Positions 7,187 to 36,776 of a stretch of 64,000 bases of DNA are shown piece by piece. Within the stretch, counting starts at the first letter, position 1; each line of letters starts with the position of its first letter. This DNA is from Cedecea neteri (lineage in GTDB: Bacteria; Pseudomonadota; Gammaproteobacteria; Enterobacterales; Enterobacteriaceae), in assembly GCF_000757825.1 (NCBI RefSeq), contig NZ_CP009451.1:2666001-2730000 (forward strand), in the 5' to 3' direction. The notes under the pieces are model-generated. The model was not told the DNA's origin. It did no database searches and saw only the letters and a program-made list of their open reading frames with translations. The position numbers were made by a program, and so were the translations under genes.

Positions 7187-7381
7187 TGCCCCTCACCCCG
7201 GCCCTCTCCCCGAAGGGGCGAGGGAGAATTCTTTAAAGGAAAGGGAATGATTTATCCCCTCACCCTTGCAGGGAGAGGGTTCTCCAGTCCTGCTTTTTAT
7301 CCCCTCACCCTTGCAGGGAGAGGGTTCTCCAGCCCTGCTTTTTATCCCCTCTCCCTCCCAGGGAGAGGGTTAGGGTGAGGG
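7187..7381. repeat. Composite palindromic repeat array (CCCTCACCC/CCCTCTCCC family)
   Basis: The segment is made of CCCTCACCC and CCCTCTCCC arms facing GGGAGAGGG and GGGTGAGGG arms. Inside it a 45-bp unit is tandemly duplicated (7252-7296 and 7297-7341), with one base different. Related copies occur at 13185-13280, 18384-18520 and 55826-55848. It lies between the hypA promoter and the putative FhlA site. It is non-coding, and its single-stranded forms would fold strongly. Confidence 0.85.
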
Positions 7382-7410
7382 TAAAAAAATCCCGACACGA
7401 AAAGTCAAAG

Positions 7411-13160: not shown

Positions 13161-13184
13161 TTTTGATGCCTGGTCGGTGACTGA

Positions 13185-13280
13185 CCCTCACCCCGGCCCT
13201 CTCCCTGGAAGGGAGAGGGGGAAAACCTGCTTCGATCTGTCCCCTCTCCCCTCAGGGGAGAGGGTTAGGGTGAGGGGTTG
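13185..13280. repeat. Palindromic repeat between hycE and hycF
   Basis: Outer arms CCCTCACCCCGGCCCTCTCCC and GAGGGTTAGGGTGAGGGG face each other and enclose two hairpins, CCCTCTCCCTGGAAGGGAGAGGG (two perfect 9-bp arms) and CCCTCTCCCCTCAGGGGAGAGGG. It belongs to the same family as the hypA-hycA array. In mRNA it would form a strong structure inside the operon. Confidence 0.88.
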
Positions 13281-18377: not shown

Positions 18378-18383
18378 TTTTTA

Positions 18384-18520
18384 CCCTCACCCCGGCCCTC
18401 TCCCTCGAAGGGATAGGGGGAAGATCTGAGTCTGATGTCTCTCCTCGTTCAGAAATGGGAGAAGCTGTGGTTGAACTCGATCTGTCCCCTCGCCCCTATG
18501 GGGAGAGGGTTAGGGTGAGG
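18384..18520. repeat. Palindromic repeat between fdhF and hypF, overlapping the hypF start
   Basis: CCCTCACCCCGGCCCTCTCCC opens the element and GGGGAGAGGGTTAGGGTGAGGGG closes it (split arms, each shared with the copies at 7187 and 13185). The middle is diverged. The right arm runs into the predicted hypF ribosome binding site and GTG start, so the repeat marks the 5' boundary of the gene. Confidence 0.85.
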
Positions 18521-20773
18521 GGCACCGTACTCCGCATTCGCGGCAAAGTGCAGGGCGTTGGCTTTCGCCCGTTTGTCTGGCAAATCGCACAGCGCCTTAA
18601 GCTGGTGGGCGACGTCTGCAACGACGGCGAAGGTGTTGTGGTTCGCCTGGAGGCCAGCCCGGAAGCGTTTCTGGGCGAGCTTTACGCACATTGCCCGCCG
18701 CTGGCTCGCATCGACAGCGTGGTGCAGCAGCCCATGACCTGGGACGTTTTGCCTGCGGACTTTAGCATTCGCCACAGCGGCAGCGGCGCGATGGACACCC
18801 AAATCGTGCCGGATGCCGCCACCTGCCCCGAATGCCTGCGTGAGCTGAACGATCCCGCCGACCGCAGATACCGCTACCCGTTTATCAATTGCACCCACTG
18901 TGGGCCGCGCTTCACCATCATCCGCGCGATGCCTTATGACCGTCCGTCCACGGTGATGGCGGCGTTTCCGCTCTGTAAGGCTTGCGATGAGGAATATCGC
19001 AACCCGATGGACAGGCGTTTTCACGCTCAGCCGGTAGCCTGCCCGGACTGCGGGCCGCAGATTTTCTGGCAGCAGGGAGAGCAACGACTCGAGGGCGAGC
19101 TGGCGCTTGCACAGGCCGTTGCCGCGCTGCACGAGGGCAAAATCGTTGCGGTGAAAGGCCTCGGCGGTTTTCATCTTGCCGTGGATGCCCGTAACGATGC
19201 CGCCGTTGAACGCCTCCGGGCGCGTAAGCAGCGGCCTGCCAAACCGCTGGCGGTGATGATTGCTACGACCGAAGGGCTGCCCGAGCAGGCCGTGGCGCTG
19301 CTTTCAACTCCCGCTGCGCCGGTAGTGCTGGTGGCAAGCAACTGCCTGCATGGGCTGAGCGCTGCCGTAGCGCCGGGGCGGAATGAAATCGGCGTGATGT
19401 TGCCCGCCAATCCCCTCCAGCACCTGCTGGCGCAGGACTTCGGCGGCCCGCTGGTGATGACCTCCGGAAACCTGAACGGCAGACCGCCAGCTGTTGATAA
19501 TGCCCAGGCTCTTCAGGATCTTGAGGCTATTGCCGACGGCTTTCTGCTGCATAACCGCGACATTCTTCAGCGCATGGACGACTCCGTTGTGCGCCCCAGC
19601 GGCGAAATGCTGCGTCGTGCACGGGGCTTTGTGCCCGATGCACTGCCTTTGCCTGCGGGCTTTAAAGACCTGCCGCCGATTCTGGCGCTGGGCGGCGATC
19701 TTAAAAATACCTTCTGCCTGGTTCGCGGCGGGCAGGCGGTGCTCAGCCAGCACCTTGGCGATCTGGCTCAGGAAGGCGTGGAGGCTCAATGGCAGCGTTC
19801 GCTGGCGCTGATGAGCGAGATCTACGGCTTTACAGCTGAACATGTCGCGCTCGACGCTCACCCCGGCTACTGCAGCTCGCAGCTGGGGCGTGAAATGGCG
19901 CTGCCGGTCAGCGAAGTGCTGCATCACCACGCCCACGCGGCGGCCTGCCTGGCCGAACACGGCTGGCCGCTGAACGGCGGCAAGGTGATTGCCCTCGCGC
20001 TGGACGGCATTGGCTATGGTGAGGACGGCAAGATTTGGGGCGGGGAATGCCTGCTGGTGAATTACCGCCGCTGCGTACACCTTGGCGGACTGCCTGCCGT
20101 GGCTCTACCGGGTGGCGATTTGGCGGCCGTGCAGCCGTGGCGCAACCTGCTGGCGCAATGCGAGGCGTTTGTGCCCGGCTGGCAGCGCTATCCCGAAACG
20201 GAAGCTATCAGGGCGCAGAACTGGCAGCCGCTGGCTAGAGCCGTGTCACGCGGGGTTAACGCTCCGTTGGCCTCTTCTTGCGGACGTCTGTTTGATGCGG
20301 TTGCCGCCGCGCTTAACTGCGCGCCCTGGCAGCAAAGCTACGAAGGCGAAGCCGCCTGCCGCCTTGAGGTGCTGGCGCTGGAGGCGGGCCCCTGTTCGCA
20401 TCCGGTCACGCTGCCGTTGGTGAACGGTCATCTCGATTTCGCGGCGTTCTGGCGGCAGTGGTTTGGCTGGCAGGTCGAGGACGGCGCGCGGGCCTGGGCC
20501 TTCCACGATGCGCTGGCGAAAGGGCTTGCTGAGCTGGTTCGCCATCATGCGTTGCTGACCGGCGTAACCAACGTGGCCTGTTGTGGCGGCGTGCTGCACA
20601 ACCGTCTGCTGCGCGAGCGTCTCGCGTTCTACCTCTCCGATTTTAAAACTCTCTTCCCGATGCGGCTTCCGGCCGGCGACGGGGCGCTTTCCCTGGGGCA
20701 GGCAGTGGTTGCCGCTGCCCGCTATTTGAATCACCACAAGGATAAAAAAGATGTTAATGCGTGTTCTTCGTGA
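18515..20773 (+). CDS. hypF: Carbamoyltransferase HypF
   Basis: HypF makes the carbamoyl group for Ni-Fe cyanide ligands from carbamoyl phosphate and ATP. Domains in order are: acylphosphatase ([16 protein letters not shown] near residues 7-22); two zinc fingers ([11 protein letters not shown] with CTHCGPRF, and CKACDEEY with CPDCGPQ); a YrdC-like domain; and a Kae1-like domain with [14 protein letters not shown] and an ALDGIGYG metal/ATP segment. The GTG at 18515 gives 752 residues against 750 in E. coli, with a GGGAGAGGG ribosome binding site supplied by the palindromic repeat. The same frame stays open back to 18374, adding 47 repeat-derived residues if an upstream GTG or the ATG at 18455 is used. 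Confidence 0.93.
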
Positions 20774-21812: not shown

Positions 21813-23066
21813 TTACCCGGCTTCCGCCCAGGCTCGCTCAATCTCTTCGGCCAGGATTTTCACCCCCGCCTCAATTTTTTCTGGCTCCGGCACATAGTTC
21901 ATGCGCATGCACTGGTGAGTGTGCGGCCACGGCTTATCCAGGCCTGGGAAGAAGTAATCGCCCGGCACCATCAGCACGCCGCGCTTTTTCAGGCGCTGGT
22001 ACAGCAGTTCGGTGGTGATAGGCAGGTCTTTAAACCACAGCCACAGGAAGATAGCGCCTTCCGGTTTGTGAATCAGGCAGCGCTCCGGCGACAGGTAGCG
22101 GCGAATAACGGCGATAGTTTCATGCACGCGCTGGTAGTAGAACGGCTTGATAACCGTCTCGGACAGGCGCAGCAGATCGTTACGCTTAATCATTTCGCAG
22201 GCCATAGCCGGGCCAATCCCGCCCGGCGCCAGGCTGATAATGCCGTTCATGTTGCCGATCGCGGAGATGATTTTCTCGTTCGCGATAATGATTCCGCAGC
22301 GGCTGCCCGGCAGGCCGAGCTTGGACAGGCTCATGCACAGGATGATGTTCGGGTTCCACAGCGGGCGGGCTTCGCTAAAGATAATGCCGGGGAACGGTAC
22401 GCCGTAAGCGTTATCGATAACCAGCGGAATACCGTGCTGGTTGGCCAGCGCGTCCAGCTTCATTAGCTCTTCATCGGTTATCACGTTGCCGGTCGGGTTA
22501 GTCGGGCGTGATACGCAAATCATGCCGGTATCTTCGCCGATATGCAGATGTTCGAAGTCAACGTGGTACTTAAACTGGCCTTCTGGCAGCAGTTCGATGT
22601 TCGGGCGAGTGGAGACAAACAGATCTTCTTCAAGCCCGGCATCCGCGTAGCCGATGTACTCCGGCGCCAGCGGGAAAAGCACCTTTTTGGTGCGGCCATC
22701 CGCATGACGTCCGGCGAAAAGGTTAAACAAGTAGAAAAACGCGCTCTGACTGCCGTTGGTTAGTGCAATATTCTGTGGTTCGATGTCCCAACCCAGTTCA
22801 TCGCGCAGCATTCCGGCAAGCAATTTTAGCAGTTCACTTTTCCCCTGCGGACCGTCGTAGTTGCATAGCGTGTCGGTCAGTTTGCCGCTGGCCAGCATCT
22901 CGGAAAGCAGCTGCTGGAAGTAGTCGTTCATCGCCGGGATTTGCGCAGGGTTACCGCCGCCAAGCATGATGGCGCCGGGCGTGCGCAGGCCGTCGTTGAG
23001 ATCCTCCATCAGGCGGGTAATGCCTGCATGGCGGGTAAATTTGTCGCCGAAAAGTGAAAACGTCAT
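21813..23066 (-). CDS. avtA: Valine-pyruvate aminotransferase AvtA
   Basis: A 417-residue fold type I PLP enzyme, the same length as E. coli AvtA. It interconverts valine/2-ketoisovalerate and alanine/pyruvate. The N-terminus is MTFSLFGDKFTRHAGITRLM. The PLP-binding lysine lies in MSLSKLGLPGSRCG, and ISRPTNPTGNV-type residues occur as VSRPTNPTGNVITDEE. It is monocistronic, convergent with the formate hydrogenlyase block and adjacent to malS as in E. coli. Confidence 0.96.
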   Translation of the reverse strand: MTFSLFGDKFTRHAGITRLMEDLNDGLRTPGAIMLGGGNPAQIPAMNDYFQQLLSEMLASGKLTDTLCNYDGPQGKSELLKLLAGMLRDELGWDIEPQNIALTNGSQSAFFYLFNLFAGRHADGRTKKVLFPLAPEYIGYADAGLEEDLFVSTRPNIELLPEGQFKYHVDFEHLHIGEDTGMICVSRPTNPTGNVITDEELMKLDALANQHGIPLVIDNAYGVPFPGIIFSEARPLWNPNIILCMSLSKLGLPGSRCGIIIANEKIISAIGNMNGIISLAPGGIGPAMACEMIKRNDLLRLSETVIKPFYYQRVHETIAVIRRYLSPERCLIHKPEGAIFLWLWFKDLPITTELLYQRLKKRGVLMVPGDYFFPGLDKPWPHTHQCMRMNYVPEPEKIEAGVKILAEEIERAWAEAG

Positions 23067-23261
23067 AACGTGGGTCTGCTGAATGCTTTTGAAAAGAGGC
23101 TAACCATAGCGCTACAAATAACGCCGTGCAAACCCGGTAAGCCTGGCCACTGTTGGTGAATATGCTGTGGGATTCGTGCTGTGTAGCAGGATATGTTGAA
23201 TGGCGGCGGCATCATTGATGCTGGCTCATATGATATTTTCTATGGGAAAACGGATGAAGTT

Positions 23262-23480
23262 CCGTTCACCTTGAGATCTGCTTCCCCTGCACTTTCAGCG
23301 CACGGTGAACGTGTCCGGGGGATAACGCCATCCCCCGAACAGCCCCGGCGCCCGGCGAGCTCATCGCCGCTAAAGCGGTAAACCCACCGGCTATCACCCA
23401 AACATTCGTGGTCGTTCCCGATTCGTTCCCGACGATCGCTCTCTTTCGCTGCTCCCGGCAGCTCAACCCCGCCTGAGTTG
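23262..23480 (-). repeat. Decayed, inverted copy of the structured repeat
   Basis: Read on the minus strand, this segment aligns with the 3' half of the copies at 23513 and 36297. It shares ACCGCTTTAGCGGCGAT, a CGGGGGAT/ATCCCCCG hairpin at the position of their 10-11 bp hairpin, GTTCACC pairing with GGTGAAC, and the terminal GTGAACGGAAC. The 5' half is only loosely similar. It lies head-to-head with the intact copy. Confidence 0.7.
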
Positions 23481-23512
23481 GGTCATAACCGGGGGCGATG
23501 AGAGCCGGGAAC

Positions 23513-23833
23513 AAGGGAGTGGCTGTAAGTCTTGAAGCGACAGTGATGTTCAGCGTGGCTGGGAACAAAAAGCGAGGCACGGTTCCGGCTTAAATCGCCT
23601 CCGTTTTCTCTCCGACTGGCCAGGGTCCGGACGTCGGGAACGGCCGGAGGCTGAGAGCGTCTGGAACGCATCTCAGCCGACCCAGGACTGGGAGATAAAA
23701 CGGAGGTCTGCCGCTTTAGCGGTCGATTTATTTGGCCGGGAGTCCGGGGTCTCGGGGAAGTGACGGTGACTTCCCCGAGTCGTTCACCGGTTCGGTGGTG
23801 ACATATGAAACCGAACTGGAAGTGAACGGAACC
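23513..23833 (+). repeat. Dispersed ~320-bp element, putative structured RNA (copy 1)
   Basis: This intergenic element is shared with 36297-36613. Stems visible by eye: P1 23585-23597/23724-23739; P2 23598-23613/23690-23706 with 15 of 16 pairs; an inner hairpin 23651-23676; CCGCTTTAGCGG at 23711-23722; an 11-bp perfect hairpin 23751-23779; and a closing stem CGTTCAC/GTGAACG at 23781-23787/23822-23828. P2 and the 23751 hairpin each show a compensatory change against copy 2. There is no convincing ORF and no T-run terminator. I do not recognise the family. Confidence 0.8.
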
Positions 23834-23863
23834 TTAGCCGAACTTAAATAGTCGATATGACGA

Positions 23864-25894
23864 CTATCGATTCCCCGCCCACACCACCATCACCTTGTCA
23901 TTGCCGCTGACCCGGCTAAAGGCATAGCCCTGTTTGACGCTTAACGTCGTTTGTTTTCCTGCGCCGATGGCCTGATGGCGGGCGCGGAACTGGCCCAGCG
24001 TCTGCCAGTGGGCAAGCGTTGCGGCCTGCTTGCTTGTGGCGTCCGGCCAGTTCATGTCCGAGCGGGTGCCCTGCAGCGGGTCAGACCCCGTTGGGCCAAA
24101 CGGTCTTTGCGTTTCATCGCCGTAGAAAATCTGTACCGCGCCTGGCGTGAGCAACAGCAGCTCCGCCGCTTTTTGTCCCCCTTCCCGGAACAGGCGGGTG
24201 TCGTGGGAGGACAGGTAGCTCAGCACGTTGAAGTGCTGGAGTTTGTCCGACATTTGTTGCCATGTGGGGGCAATCGTGGCCAGGCATTCCACCGCTTTGG
24301 CCGCCTGCTCCTGGTAGTCGAAGTTGATCATCGCGTCGAAGCCGTTCGCGTAGTAATCGCTTTTCATCACGCCGTGGCCCCAGGCTTCGCCCGTCATCCA
24401 GAACGGTGCATCATCGATTTTTTTGTCCGGGTTGGCCTGCTTCCATTCGGCTAATGCCGCACTGGACTGCATTTTTAATTGCTGCCAGGCCGCTTTTTCA
24501 ACGTGTTTTGCGGTATCTACCCTGAAACCATCAATGCCATAGTCACGTACCCATTGGCTAAGCCAGTGGCTCAGGTAGTCGCGAACGGTGTAGCCAGGTA
24601 TCACCTTCGCGGCGGTATCGGGCTTGTGGCGGTAAAATATCGGGAGTTCTGCCGGAGCGGTCGCTTCGGTTTTCAAATCGGGCAAGAAGGCGAGCGACAT
24701 AGTTAAGTCGTCGAAGCCAGGGTTGTCGTAATCGCCAATGTCCGTTCTGATCCAGGCCTTGCCCCACCACTTATCCCACGCGGCTTTGTCGCTAAAGTTG
24801 ATGTAGTCGTTAAAGCTGTGCCAGCTTTGGCCCGCCGCTGGCTTCCAGTCAGTCCAGCGCTCGCCGAGCGTTTTCCTGAGTTCCTCCCCTTTGAGATACA
24901 GCGCGCCAAACTGGTACTCCTGCATGTCGGCGAGCGTCGCATAGCCTGTGTGGTTCATGACAACGTCAAACAGAATGCGGATCCCGCGCCTGTGGGCTTC
25001 ATCCACCAGTTTGCGGAGCTCGGCTTCGTTACCCATGTTGGCGTCAAGCTTCGTCCAGTCCAGGGTGTAGTAACCGTGGTAGGCGTAGTGTGGGAAGTCG
25101 CCTTTGGTGCCGCCGCCCACCCAGCCGTGAATTTGCTCCAGCGGGGAGCTTATCCAGAGCGTGTTAACACCAAGCTGCTGCAGGTAATCCAGCCTGCTGG
25201 TGAGCCCCGCGAGGTCGCCTCCGTGGAAGGTGCCTATCTCCTGCATTCCGTCTTTGTGGCGGCCATAGCTGCTGTCGTTTGCAGGGTTGCCGTTTTCAAA
25301 ACGATCGGTCAGAACGAAGTAGACCGTCGCATTGTGCCAGCTAAACGGCGCTGGTTTTTCTACGGCTGCGGATTCCAGCAGCAATAAACCGTCGCTTCCG
25401 GCGGCAGGCATCAGCGTGATATGGCCTTGCTCAACTTTTGCCGTGCCTCCGCTGTAGAAATCACGCACCAGTGAACCTTCCGGGAAAGTACTGCTAACGT
25501 CGACGGTGAGTGGCTTTCCATCCCATTTAGGGCACTGCGCCACCGTCTGTTGAGGCTGGCTGCTGGCCTCGGGCTTAATGCTGAGCATCAGCGTGGGGGT
25601 ACCGCTGCGGGTATCTATCTGTGCCTGGTATTCTCCGGCTCGGAAAAGTCGCCACGCAGGCGCATCGCCTGAGCACGGCCTGAGTGAAAGAGCCTGATTA
25701 AGCTTGATGGTTTCTGCAGGCTGCCAGCATTGGTTATCTAGCTTCAGATTAAGCGGCAGCGAGCCTTTGGCCAGATGAGCGGTGCTGATGAACTGGCCCG
25801 GACCCGTTTCCTGAAAAGCAGGAAGTCCCGGTGCGGTCCAGCCTGCGTAAGCGAGGTAAGGCGTGAGTAAAAGACAGAGAGAGAACCGTTTCAT
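23864..25894 (-). CDS. malS: Periplasmic alpha-amylase MalS
   Basis: A 676-residue GH13 enzyme, exactly the E. coli length, that trims maltodextrins in the periplasm. The chosen start gives MKRFSLCLLLTPYLAYAG, a clear signal peptide, with AGGA 8 bp before the ATG. Upstream in-frame ATGs would add a non-signal extension. The catalytic segments are visible as DGFRVDTAKHV (nucleophile Asp), MTGEAWGHGV (acid/base Glu) and LSSHDTRLF. An N-terminal carbohydrate-binding-like region precedes the barrel. The 3' end lies about 30 bp from the structured repeat, and a short ATAGTCG/CGACTAT hairpin overlaps the stop codon. Confidence 0.96.
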   Translation of the reverse strand: MKRFSLCLLLTPYLAYAGWTAPGLPAFQETGPGQFISTAHLAKGSLPLNLKLDNQCWQPAETIKLNQALSLRPCSGDAPAWRLFRAGEYQAQIDTRSGTPTLMLSIKPEASSQPQQTVAQCPKWDGKPLTVDVSSTFPEGSLVRDFYSGGTAKVEQGHITLMPAAGSDGLLLLESAAVEKPAPFSWHNATVYFVLTDRFENGNPANDSSYGRHKDGMQEIGTFHGGDLAGLTSRLDYLQQLGVNTLWISSPLEQIHGWVGGGTKGDFPHYAYHGYYTLDWTKLDANMGNEAELRKLVDEAHRRGIRILFDVVMNHTGYATLADMQEYQFGALYLKGEELRKTLGERWTDWKPAAGQSWHSFNDYINFSDKAAWDKWWGKAWIRTDIGDYDNPGFDDLTMSLAFLPDLKTEATAPAELPIFYRHKPDTAAKVIPGYTVRDYLSHWLSQWVRDYGIDGFRVDTAKHVEKAAWQQLKMQSSAALAEWKQANPDKKIDDAPFWMTGEAWGHGVMKSDYYANGFDAMINFDYQEQAAKAVECLATIAPTWQQMSDKLQHFNVLSYLSSHDTRLFREGGQKAAELLLLTPGAVQIFYGDETQRPFGPTGSDPLQGTRSDMNWPDATSKQAATLAHWQTLGQFRARHQAIGAGKQTTLSVKQGYAFSRVSGNDKVMVVWAGNR

Positions 25895-26012
25895 ACGCAT
25901 CATCCTGTGGGGATTTATTGCGCAGTTTGCCACCGTTCAGACGGAGGGCGCTCATCCTGCGCCTACGTTATGCAGGGTGGAGCCGCAAGGGTGAGTGACG
26001 GCGTTAACGTTT

Positions 26013-36296: not shown

Positions 36297-36613
36297 AAGG
36301 GCGTGGCTGTAGGACTTGAAGCAACAATGACTTTCAGAATGGATTTGGGTCAAAAGCGAGGCTCGGTTCCGGCTTAAATCGCCTCAGTTTTCTCTCCGAC
36401 TGGCCGGGGTCCGGCCGTCGGGAACGGCCGGAGGCTGAGAGCGTCGGGAACGCATCTCAGGCGACCCAGGACTGGGAGATAAAGCTGAGGTTTACCGCTT
36501 GCGGCGATTTATTTGGCCGGGAGTCCGGGGCCTCGGGGGAGTGACGGTGACTCCACCGAGACGTTCACCGTCTCTGTGATGACATATAAAGCAGGGCTAG
36601 AAGTGAACGGAAC
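36297..36613 (+). repeat. Dispersed ~320-bp element, putative structured RNA (copy 2)
   Basis: This copy aligns end to end with 23513-23833. P2 pairs 36382-36397 with 36475-36490. Relative to copy 1, a C-G pair is replaced by A-U (A36386 with U36486) and a U-A by U-G. The hairpin 36532-36560 has a G-C where copy 1 has A-U. CCGCTTGCGG (36495-36504) has lost one matched pair. The closing stem ends in GTGAACGGAAC as in copy 1. It lies in the sense direction directly after xylB. Confidence 0.8.
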
Positions 36614-36776
36614 CTAAGTCCATCGTTCATAGAACGTATTTTGGGCTAAAAGACAGCCATTTAGAATGAGTGAAGATCGTCGTCTCAAACCAACACCATC
36701 CTGTCCTTTTTTGGTATCAGCGCTTGCGGAATCCCCTGCCAGAATGGTTTTAAGCAAACCAATGAGGAGTCCGAAT

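Follow-up and report, generated by a model that had tools for sequence, protein, structure and literature searches.

A folded inverted-repeat element of Cedecea neteri with features of a non-autonomous mobile repeat

What kind of element is the repeated, folded intergenic sequence beside avtA in Cedecea neteri: a structured RNA, a DNA structure or something that moves? The window, that is, the whole stretch of 64,000 nucleotides analysed, holds the sequence in the interval between avtA (21813..23066, minus strand; named from annotated E. coli matches) and a second gene on the minus strand (23864..25933), which we take to be malS. An initial annotation, made from the letters alone, had described a unit of ~320 bp at 23513-23833 with a second copy at 36297-36613, and had read matched changes in its stems as selection on RNA or cruciform structure. 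The second copy is present and is 86% identical over query positions 1-325 by BLAST in the own genome. The positions given for the P2 stem (23598-23613 with 23690-23706), the P5 hairpin (23751-23779) and the hairpin CCGCTTTAGCGG (23711-23722) are exact. Side-by-side reading of both copies also reproduces the paired changes in P2 (C-G to A-U and U-A to U-G), the A-U to G-C change in the hairpin and the lost pair in CCGCTTTAGCGG. Covariation evidence from two copies alone is weak, and the analysis was extended to many copies from several genera. The results make it reasonably probable, in our judgement, that the sequence belongs to a non-autonomous, MITE-like mobile repeat with Tn5-type ends, which lies between convergent genes and whose propagating lineages keep its fold.

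Architecture of the element

An imperfect inverted repeat of ~590 bp contains the ~320-bp unit as its centre and right arm. The whole core (23251..23840), composed of two inverted arms and a centre, aligned as a single piece with other copies, and it is 62% self-complementary, end to end, when compared with its own reverse complement. The right arm, which is the 23513-23833 element minus its centre, occupies 23564..23840 on the plus strand; the helices of the left arm (23251..23509) run 5' to 3' on the minus strand. A covariance model of the right-arm core, built from 23 sequences and 156 positions, scores 197.2 bits at 23585-23740 (L001:1573-1728) and also matches the left arm (L001:1339-1496:-, 64.8 bits, E 6.5e-14; window 23351-23508 by offset). 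The left arm is an inverted, diverged copy of the right arm, with the same architecture on the opposite strand. The centre (23510..23566) consists of a 54-nt linker in the window copy and of a REP pair in other copies, and the sequence upstream of 23513 recurs together with right-arm copies. The bounds first drawn for the unit enclose a real right arm and centre and are too narrow, as they leave out the left arm at 23251-23509. A discrete 320-nt RNA gene was rejected as the unit, since the left arm and the ends are parts of the element, too.

Subterminal inverted repeats, both on the plus strand, lie at the left (GTTCCGTTCACC, 23259..23270) and at the right (GTGAACGGAAC, 23822..23832). The outer left end of the window copy is probably a degraded remnant at 23224..23250 (plus strand), as judged by eye against the outer ends of other copies. 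The second window copy (L020; 36303..36656, plus strand) has the centre and right arm, is missing its left arm and carries the outer right end CTAAAAGACAG at 36646-36656 (plus strand). Among the listed open frames, the element holds none beyond one of 104 amino acids.

Because RNAalifold recovered only two helices from 111 right arms, the arm structure was made by hand under the guidance of single-sequence folds. All its parts lie on the plus strand in the right arm. A closing helix, P1b/P1c (23585-23599 with 23724-23740), encloses the multi-branched arm core at 23585..23740. Within it stand the long P2 stem (23598..23706), with its inner hairpins P2b (23626..23648, loop CGGGA) and P2c/P2d (23649..23678, loop CTGGA in the window copy), and the hairpin P3 (23711..23722). 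These are followed by P5 (23751..23779), with a covarying stem and a loop, GACGGTG, that is constant within the genus, and by P6 (23781..23828), a stem with a hypervariable loop. Against dinucleotide shuffles, the right arm folds with z = -5.62 as RNA and z = -8.37 as DNA, the left arm on its own strand with z = -4.03, and the 590-nt core with z = -8.21 (MFE -295.9 kcal/mol). The shared multi-helix fold proposed for this repeated intergenic element is supported. Some arms (L243, L244 and L216; g20 and g90) contain an extra P2d-hairpin insert, which holds TCACAGGGATGTGA, a further GGA hairpin, as seen in g20.

Copies, ends and genomic position

In the own genome, 51 BLAST pieces fall into 40 loci, which carry the element whole or in part; all 40 were fetched, and none is without a piece. 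By coverage, 9 of the 40 have two complete arms; the others lack parts, and losses of single hairpins among incomplete copies are often sharp. The element occurs in all eight genomes analysed from the genus; G026 and G034 gave weak matches, and the other 49 of 59 returned genomes gave none in a search that scored the 12 top candidates of each genome. An exact 35-base piece is present in the named records Enterobacteriaceae bacterium RIT693, Enterobacter sp. Ag1 and Enterobacter sp. Cy-643. Within the family, 14 of 246 genomes, from 8 of 154 genera, have matches to the covariance model, and an order-wide draw gave matches in 4 of 295 genomes, all four from the own family. Arms again form divergent pairs, minus then plus, in the genera g90, g20 and g123, and one copy in g90 shares 92-97% identity with each of six other whole or long copies. 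A plasmid, phage or E. coli origin was rejected, as none of the three corresponding collections matched a 451-bp query. One locus of G009 (L231) has a pair of equally oriented arm copies beside a tandem run of GCAGACTTCCC units.

Orthologous places differ in whether they carry the element. By eye, the avtA-malS interval has it in the own genome, G002 and G006 and lacks it in G001, G003, G004 and G007; G005 is outside this comparison because a contig starts there. Downstream of xylB, the element is present in the own genome, is a short remnant in G006 and is absent from the other six genomes, again by eye. At these two places, species that lack the element have either a REP or a short spacer. 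In the draft genome G005, 6 of the 12 matches listed start at contig base 1, and the repeat therefore breaks this assembly. For annotators, the family is an unlisted one that breaks assemblies and fills dozens of intergenic regions in the genus.

Better copies are bounded overall by Tn5-like CTGTCTCTTA...TAAGAGACAG, with CTGTCTCTTA(GTC or TAC)ACA as the outer left end and TGTGACTAAGAGACAG as the outer right end; the corresponding ends in g90 are CTGTCTCTTAGTCACAAC and TCTGTATAAGAGACAG. These ends resemble what we take to be the Tn5 mosaic end, CTGTCTCTTATACACATCT. The same 19 letters serve as primer ends in an in vitro transposition method, according to a passage of PMC11075570. A degenerate end pattern matched 35 times in the genus, compared to twice for a reversed control, and 25 of 30 loci fetched from such matches carry an adjoining element match. 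Both ends were located in 16 copies with up to 3 mismatches allowed per end, at which threshold some end pairs may be wrong. No Tn5-like ends were seen by eye in the g123 elements.

Direct repeats of 9 and 11 bp are in excess at the flanks. The RIT693 copy (L176) lies between two perfect 9-bp repeats, CCCAGAGGG, inside a REP. Among nine lengths tried on 34 copies, flank agreement was best at 9 bp (p 0.0015), followed by 11 bp (p 0.0045). With copies from other genera included (44 in total), the values were p 0.001 at 9 bp and p 0.005 at 11 bp, and they became p 0.0065 and p 0.0035, respectively, when L176 was left out. A clear target duplication is absent at most flanks, and REP palindromes could mimic some direct repeats.

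The Tn5-type DNA-binding domain PF14706 was found in 0 of 8 genomes of the genus and 0 of 11 other carriers, with a positive E. coli control, so no partner enzyme is known. PF02281 was found in 0 of 8 genomes of the genus in a search that is uninformative because its positive control also gave nothing, and no transposase was recognised by eye among the listed open frames beside copies at 14 loci of other genera. The initial annotation saw no attached protein gene, which is true of the element itself and not of every locus: an IS110-family transposase gene (PF01548 and PF02371; copies 99.3-100% identical) lies in or beside 8 of the 40 own loci (L007, L029, L030, L085, L090, L091, L093 and L094). 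In the four of these that were read, L007, L030, L093 and L094, this gene occupies the place that the REP pair has in other copies. IS110-family elements are described in a passage of PMC1525189 as targeting REPs.

Convergent gene pairs flank most own copies. By a simple open-frame caller, and with one edge locus excluded, 26 of 39 are in convergent, 10 in tandem and 3 in divergent intervals, compared to 6 convergent among 35 window intervals of at least 30 bp (p 2e-5); both window copies sit in tandem intervals. The IS110 gene may be the neighbour at 7 of the 39 loci, and the convergent share is 21 of 32 when these are set aside. In raw counts, 17 of 40 own copies contain REP-like words, and 18 of 40 have them in the adjoining 120 bp. 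In the window, REP pairs of the CCCTCACCCC..CCCTCTCCC type are found at 7187-7387, 13184-13280 and 18378-18525. According to passages of PMC1525189, REPs are common between convergent genes, and Tn5 favours palindromic targets and is believed to favour the supercoiled DNA in such intervals. Such preferences would account for the convergent position without a host function.

Evolution of the stems

The location at gene 3' ends and the complexity of the fold, with its long-range helix, could also be those of a structured RNA for which mobility is secondary: each arm would be transcribed in its own sense, fold and act as a 3'-UTR element or a small RNA. We regard this explanation as rather unlikely, and the evidence that bears on it is mixed. 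Covariation across genera is real and agrees with it. The model-fitted alignment, of whose 76 rows 66 are distinct and a few are weak or antisense matches, gave 546 two-sided cells compared to 149.8 in shuffles. An alignment of 45 arms made from sequence only gave 247 compared to 95.9, a value that 0 of 500 shuffles reached, and slid controls of this alignment gave at most 113. In P1c, the helix that closes ~125 nt, 99.6% of cells are paired and 4 of the 6 pairs have two-sided changes (16 cells). The two-sided changes across genera, together with the pairing of P1c, indicate that the fold has been constrained over the long term. The larger alignment that the initial annotation had proposed as a check therefore bears out its paired changes.

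Within the genus, the signal is narrower. The arm core alone has 3 covarying pairs compared to 1.0 in shuffles, a weak result that 23 of 500 shuffles reach. The P5 stems exchange pairs on both sides around their constant GACGGTG loop, with 23 two-sided cells compared to 7.1 (0 of 500 shuffles); by other counts, P5 has 4 covarying pairs compared to 3.7 in shuffles and 9 pair types compared to 12.8.

Selection on one RNA strand should tolerate G-U pairs and not A-C mismatches. Watson-Crick pairs changed to GU in 54 events and to AC in 32 in the 111 right arms, and in 24 and 18 events, respectively, in the 76 left arms. The pooled ratio in the genus, 78:50 (binomial p 0.017), is in the direction expected for an RNA, yet RNase P RNA of the same family, analysed by the same method (29 of 30 loci from the best of 60 genomes, with one dropped by length), gave 54:8 (p 1.9e-4 versus 78:50). 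Pair-preserving changes, similarly, were 126 of 149 in RNase P RNA and 75 of 189 in the right arm. The GU:AC ratio was 8:5 in other genera and 54:55 at good pairs of the sequence-only alignment. A GU excess in the model-fitted alignment (33:9) leans to GU by construction and was discounted because it does not appear in the sequence-only alignment. Stems of young copies thus evolve unlike those of RNase P RNA, and these data do not show a one-strand RNA function.

Other observations also stand against a dedicated RNA. Among 45 orthologous pairs, stems change as often (310 of 5669 positions, 0.055) as ordinary unpaired positions (155 of 2685, 0.058). No promoter-like site was found in 23100-24000, the centre included. 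Rfam, whose scan the initial annotation had also proposed, gave no family at gathering score in the window and 14 carrier loci; a known Rfam family was rejected, as relaxed-threshold matches scored far under the gathering thresholds. The P6 loop at 23788-23821 is hypervariable, with 0.25 differing at orthologous sites compared to about 6% elsewhere in the arm. At first the stems had seemed better conserved than the loops; this impression was due to the P6 loop and was withdrawn, the rates being equal without it.

Alternatively, the repeat could act at the DNA level, by forming hairpins or cruciforms at the ends of genes like REP/BIME sequences, and have no RNA role. The near strand-symmetric tolerance of G-T and A-C mismatches, the DNA fold score (z = -8.37) and the REP-like sequence in or near own copies are all consistent with this. 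However, the best conserved long-range helix closes ~125 nt and is unlikely to form a cruciform, and conserved loop sequences would be left unexplained; we hold this explanation to be improbable. As to the initial proposal of selection on RNA or cruciform structure, the fold is kept, and the strand test speaks rather against an RNA dedicated to one strand. Template switching in imperfect hairpins or exchange between copies, either of which could give paired changes without fold selection, is very improbable as the explanation: orthologous copies do differ more than their flanks in 21 of 45 pairs, as if converted, and other genera have nearly as many two-sided (20) as one-sided changes (22) with few intermediates, but the long-range P1c, far from a short hairpin, has two-sided changes as well.

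The branches on which changes fall differ too. Two-sided changes are 13 of 48 on internal branches and 8 of 141 on terminal ones (p 1.8e-4), which we read as a fold that is kept by spreading lineages, with copies that may decay where they have landed. Any purifying selection leaves more broken pairs on terminal branches. Broken terminal pairs thus fit ordinary purifying selection too, and the branch contrast is no proof that only propagation needs the fold.

A mobile repeat and its relation to known systems

The mobile repeat that we favour would have worked as follows. Two structured arms in inverted orientation would form a non-autonomous repeat, bounded in the own genus and in g90 by putative Tn5/IS50-like (IS4-family) terminal repeats. 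An IS4-family transposase supplied in trans probably moved it, often to places beside REP hairpins and between convergent genes. Propagating lineages would have to keep the multi-branched fold (closing helix, P2 with two inner hairpins, P3, P5 and P6), and individual copies would decay after insertion. A landed copy is probably a passive hairpin in transcripts that read in from either side. Of this picture, the number of copies, their presence or absence at orthologous places, the ends and the paired changes were observed; the enzyme, the need of the fold for spread and any influence on transcripts are inferred. To our knowledge, a DDE transposase has no need for internal folding, which counts against this explanation.

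The loops offer a lead, not a result, for a role on read-through. GGA is present in 59 of 66 P2b loops and 59 of 65 P2d loops (distinct rows). In the own genus, the loop is a CNGGA pentaloop, mostly CGGGA, and the GGA letters are off consensus in 2 of 1020 cells, with the GGA-free P5 loop nearly as constant. There is no enrichment of GGA per whole arm (10.85 compared to 9.55 in shuffles). In g3, g108 and g123, several loops have the form ANGGAY closed by AC/GU, such as AC[AGGGAC]GU, AC[AAGGAU]GU and AC[ACGGAC]GU, in which N varies and GGA is fixed. CsrA sites, according to a passage of PMC7652899, have GGA in hairpin loops and at best an ANGGAN hexaloop closed by AC/GU. A mobile repeat family with a conserved three-way-junction RNA, whose two adjacent NGGA loops might bind a CsrA dimer on read-through, is an improbable proposition at present. 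If it is true, dozens of selfish copies would together serve a global regulator as an evolvable sponge, or as a 3'-end switch, dispersed over the genome.

The element shares with MITEs its multiple dispersed copies, the lack of a protein of its own and terminal inverted repeats; ends shared with an autonomous element did not emerge from the PF14706 search (0 of 19 carriers). Compared to Tn5/IS50 (IS4 family), its outer ends (CTGTCTCTTATACACATTT in RIT693) are like the mosaic end, and an excess of 9-bp direct repeats is found at its flanks, whereas it has no transposase gene and possesses internal structure. No description of the element was found in titles and abstract starts of the open-licence literature on bacterial MITEs and intergenic repeats.

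Compared to other enterobacterial repeats, the element exhibits several similarities and differences. First, MITEs such as ERIC, as described in part of PMC10969869, are likewise short, non-coding, dispersed, intergenic and near-palindromic and are likewise carried into transcripts at gene 3' ends. The description of ERIC as 127 bp in a passage of PMC2267715 sets it apart from an element of about 590-740 bp, and ERIC-type MITEs form one long hairpin where the element has two multi-branched arms. Second, REP/BIME sequences, in passages of PMC1525189 and PMC2817692, are likewise palindromic, between convergent genes and often in alternating orientation, while the unit of the element is about seven times longer, of other sequence and multi-branched. 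Third, the MRSC-65-2 motif, as a passage of PMC11109978 presents it, likewise has dozens of copies, covaries, is possibly mobile and has a structure perhaps relevant as DNA; it is a single long stem from diverse phyla, in contrast to a multi-branched arm pair from one family in these searches.

Finally, decoys of CsrA of the CsrB/RsmZ type have GGA in hairpin loops in common with the element, which has only two such loops per arm. Bacterial MITEs are usually regarded as transposon ends plus filler. In this element the filler folds into a complex structure, which can be recognised in eight genera of one family and carries compensating changes, and the element provides a test case for whether a spreading DNA repeat needs its fold or has been co-opted, at the ends of genes, as a device that works as RNA or DNA.
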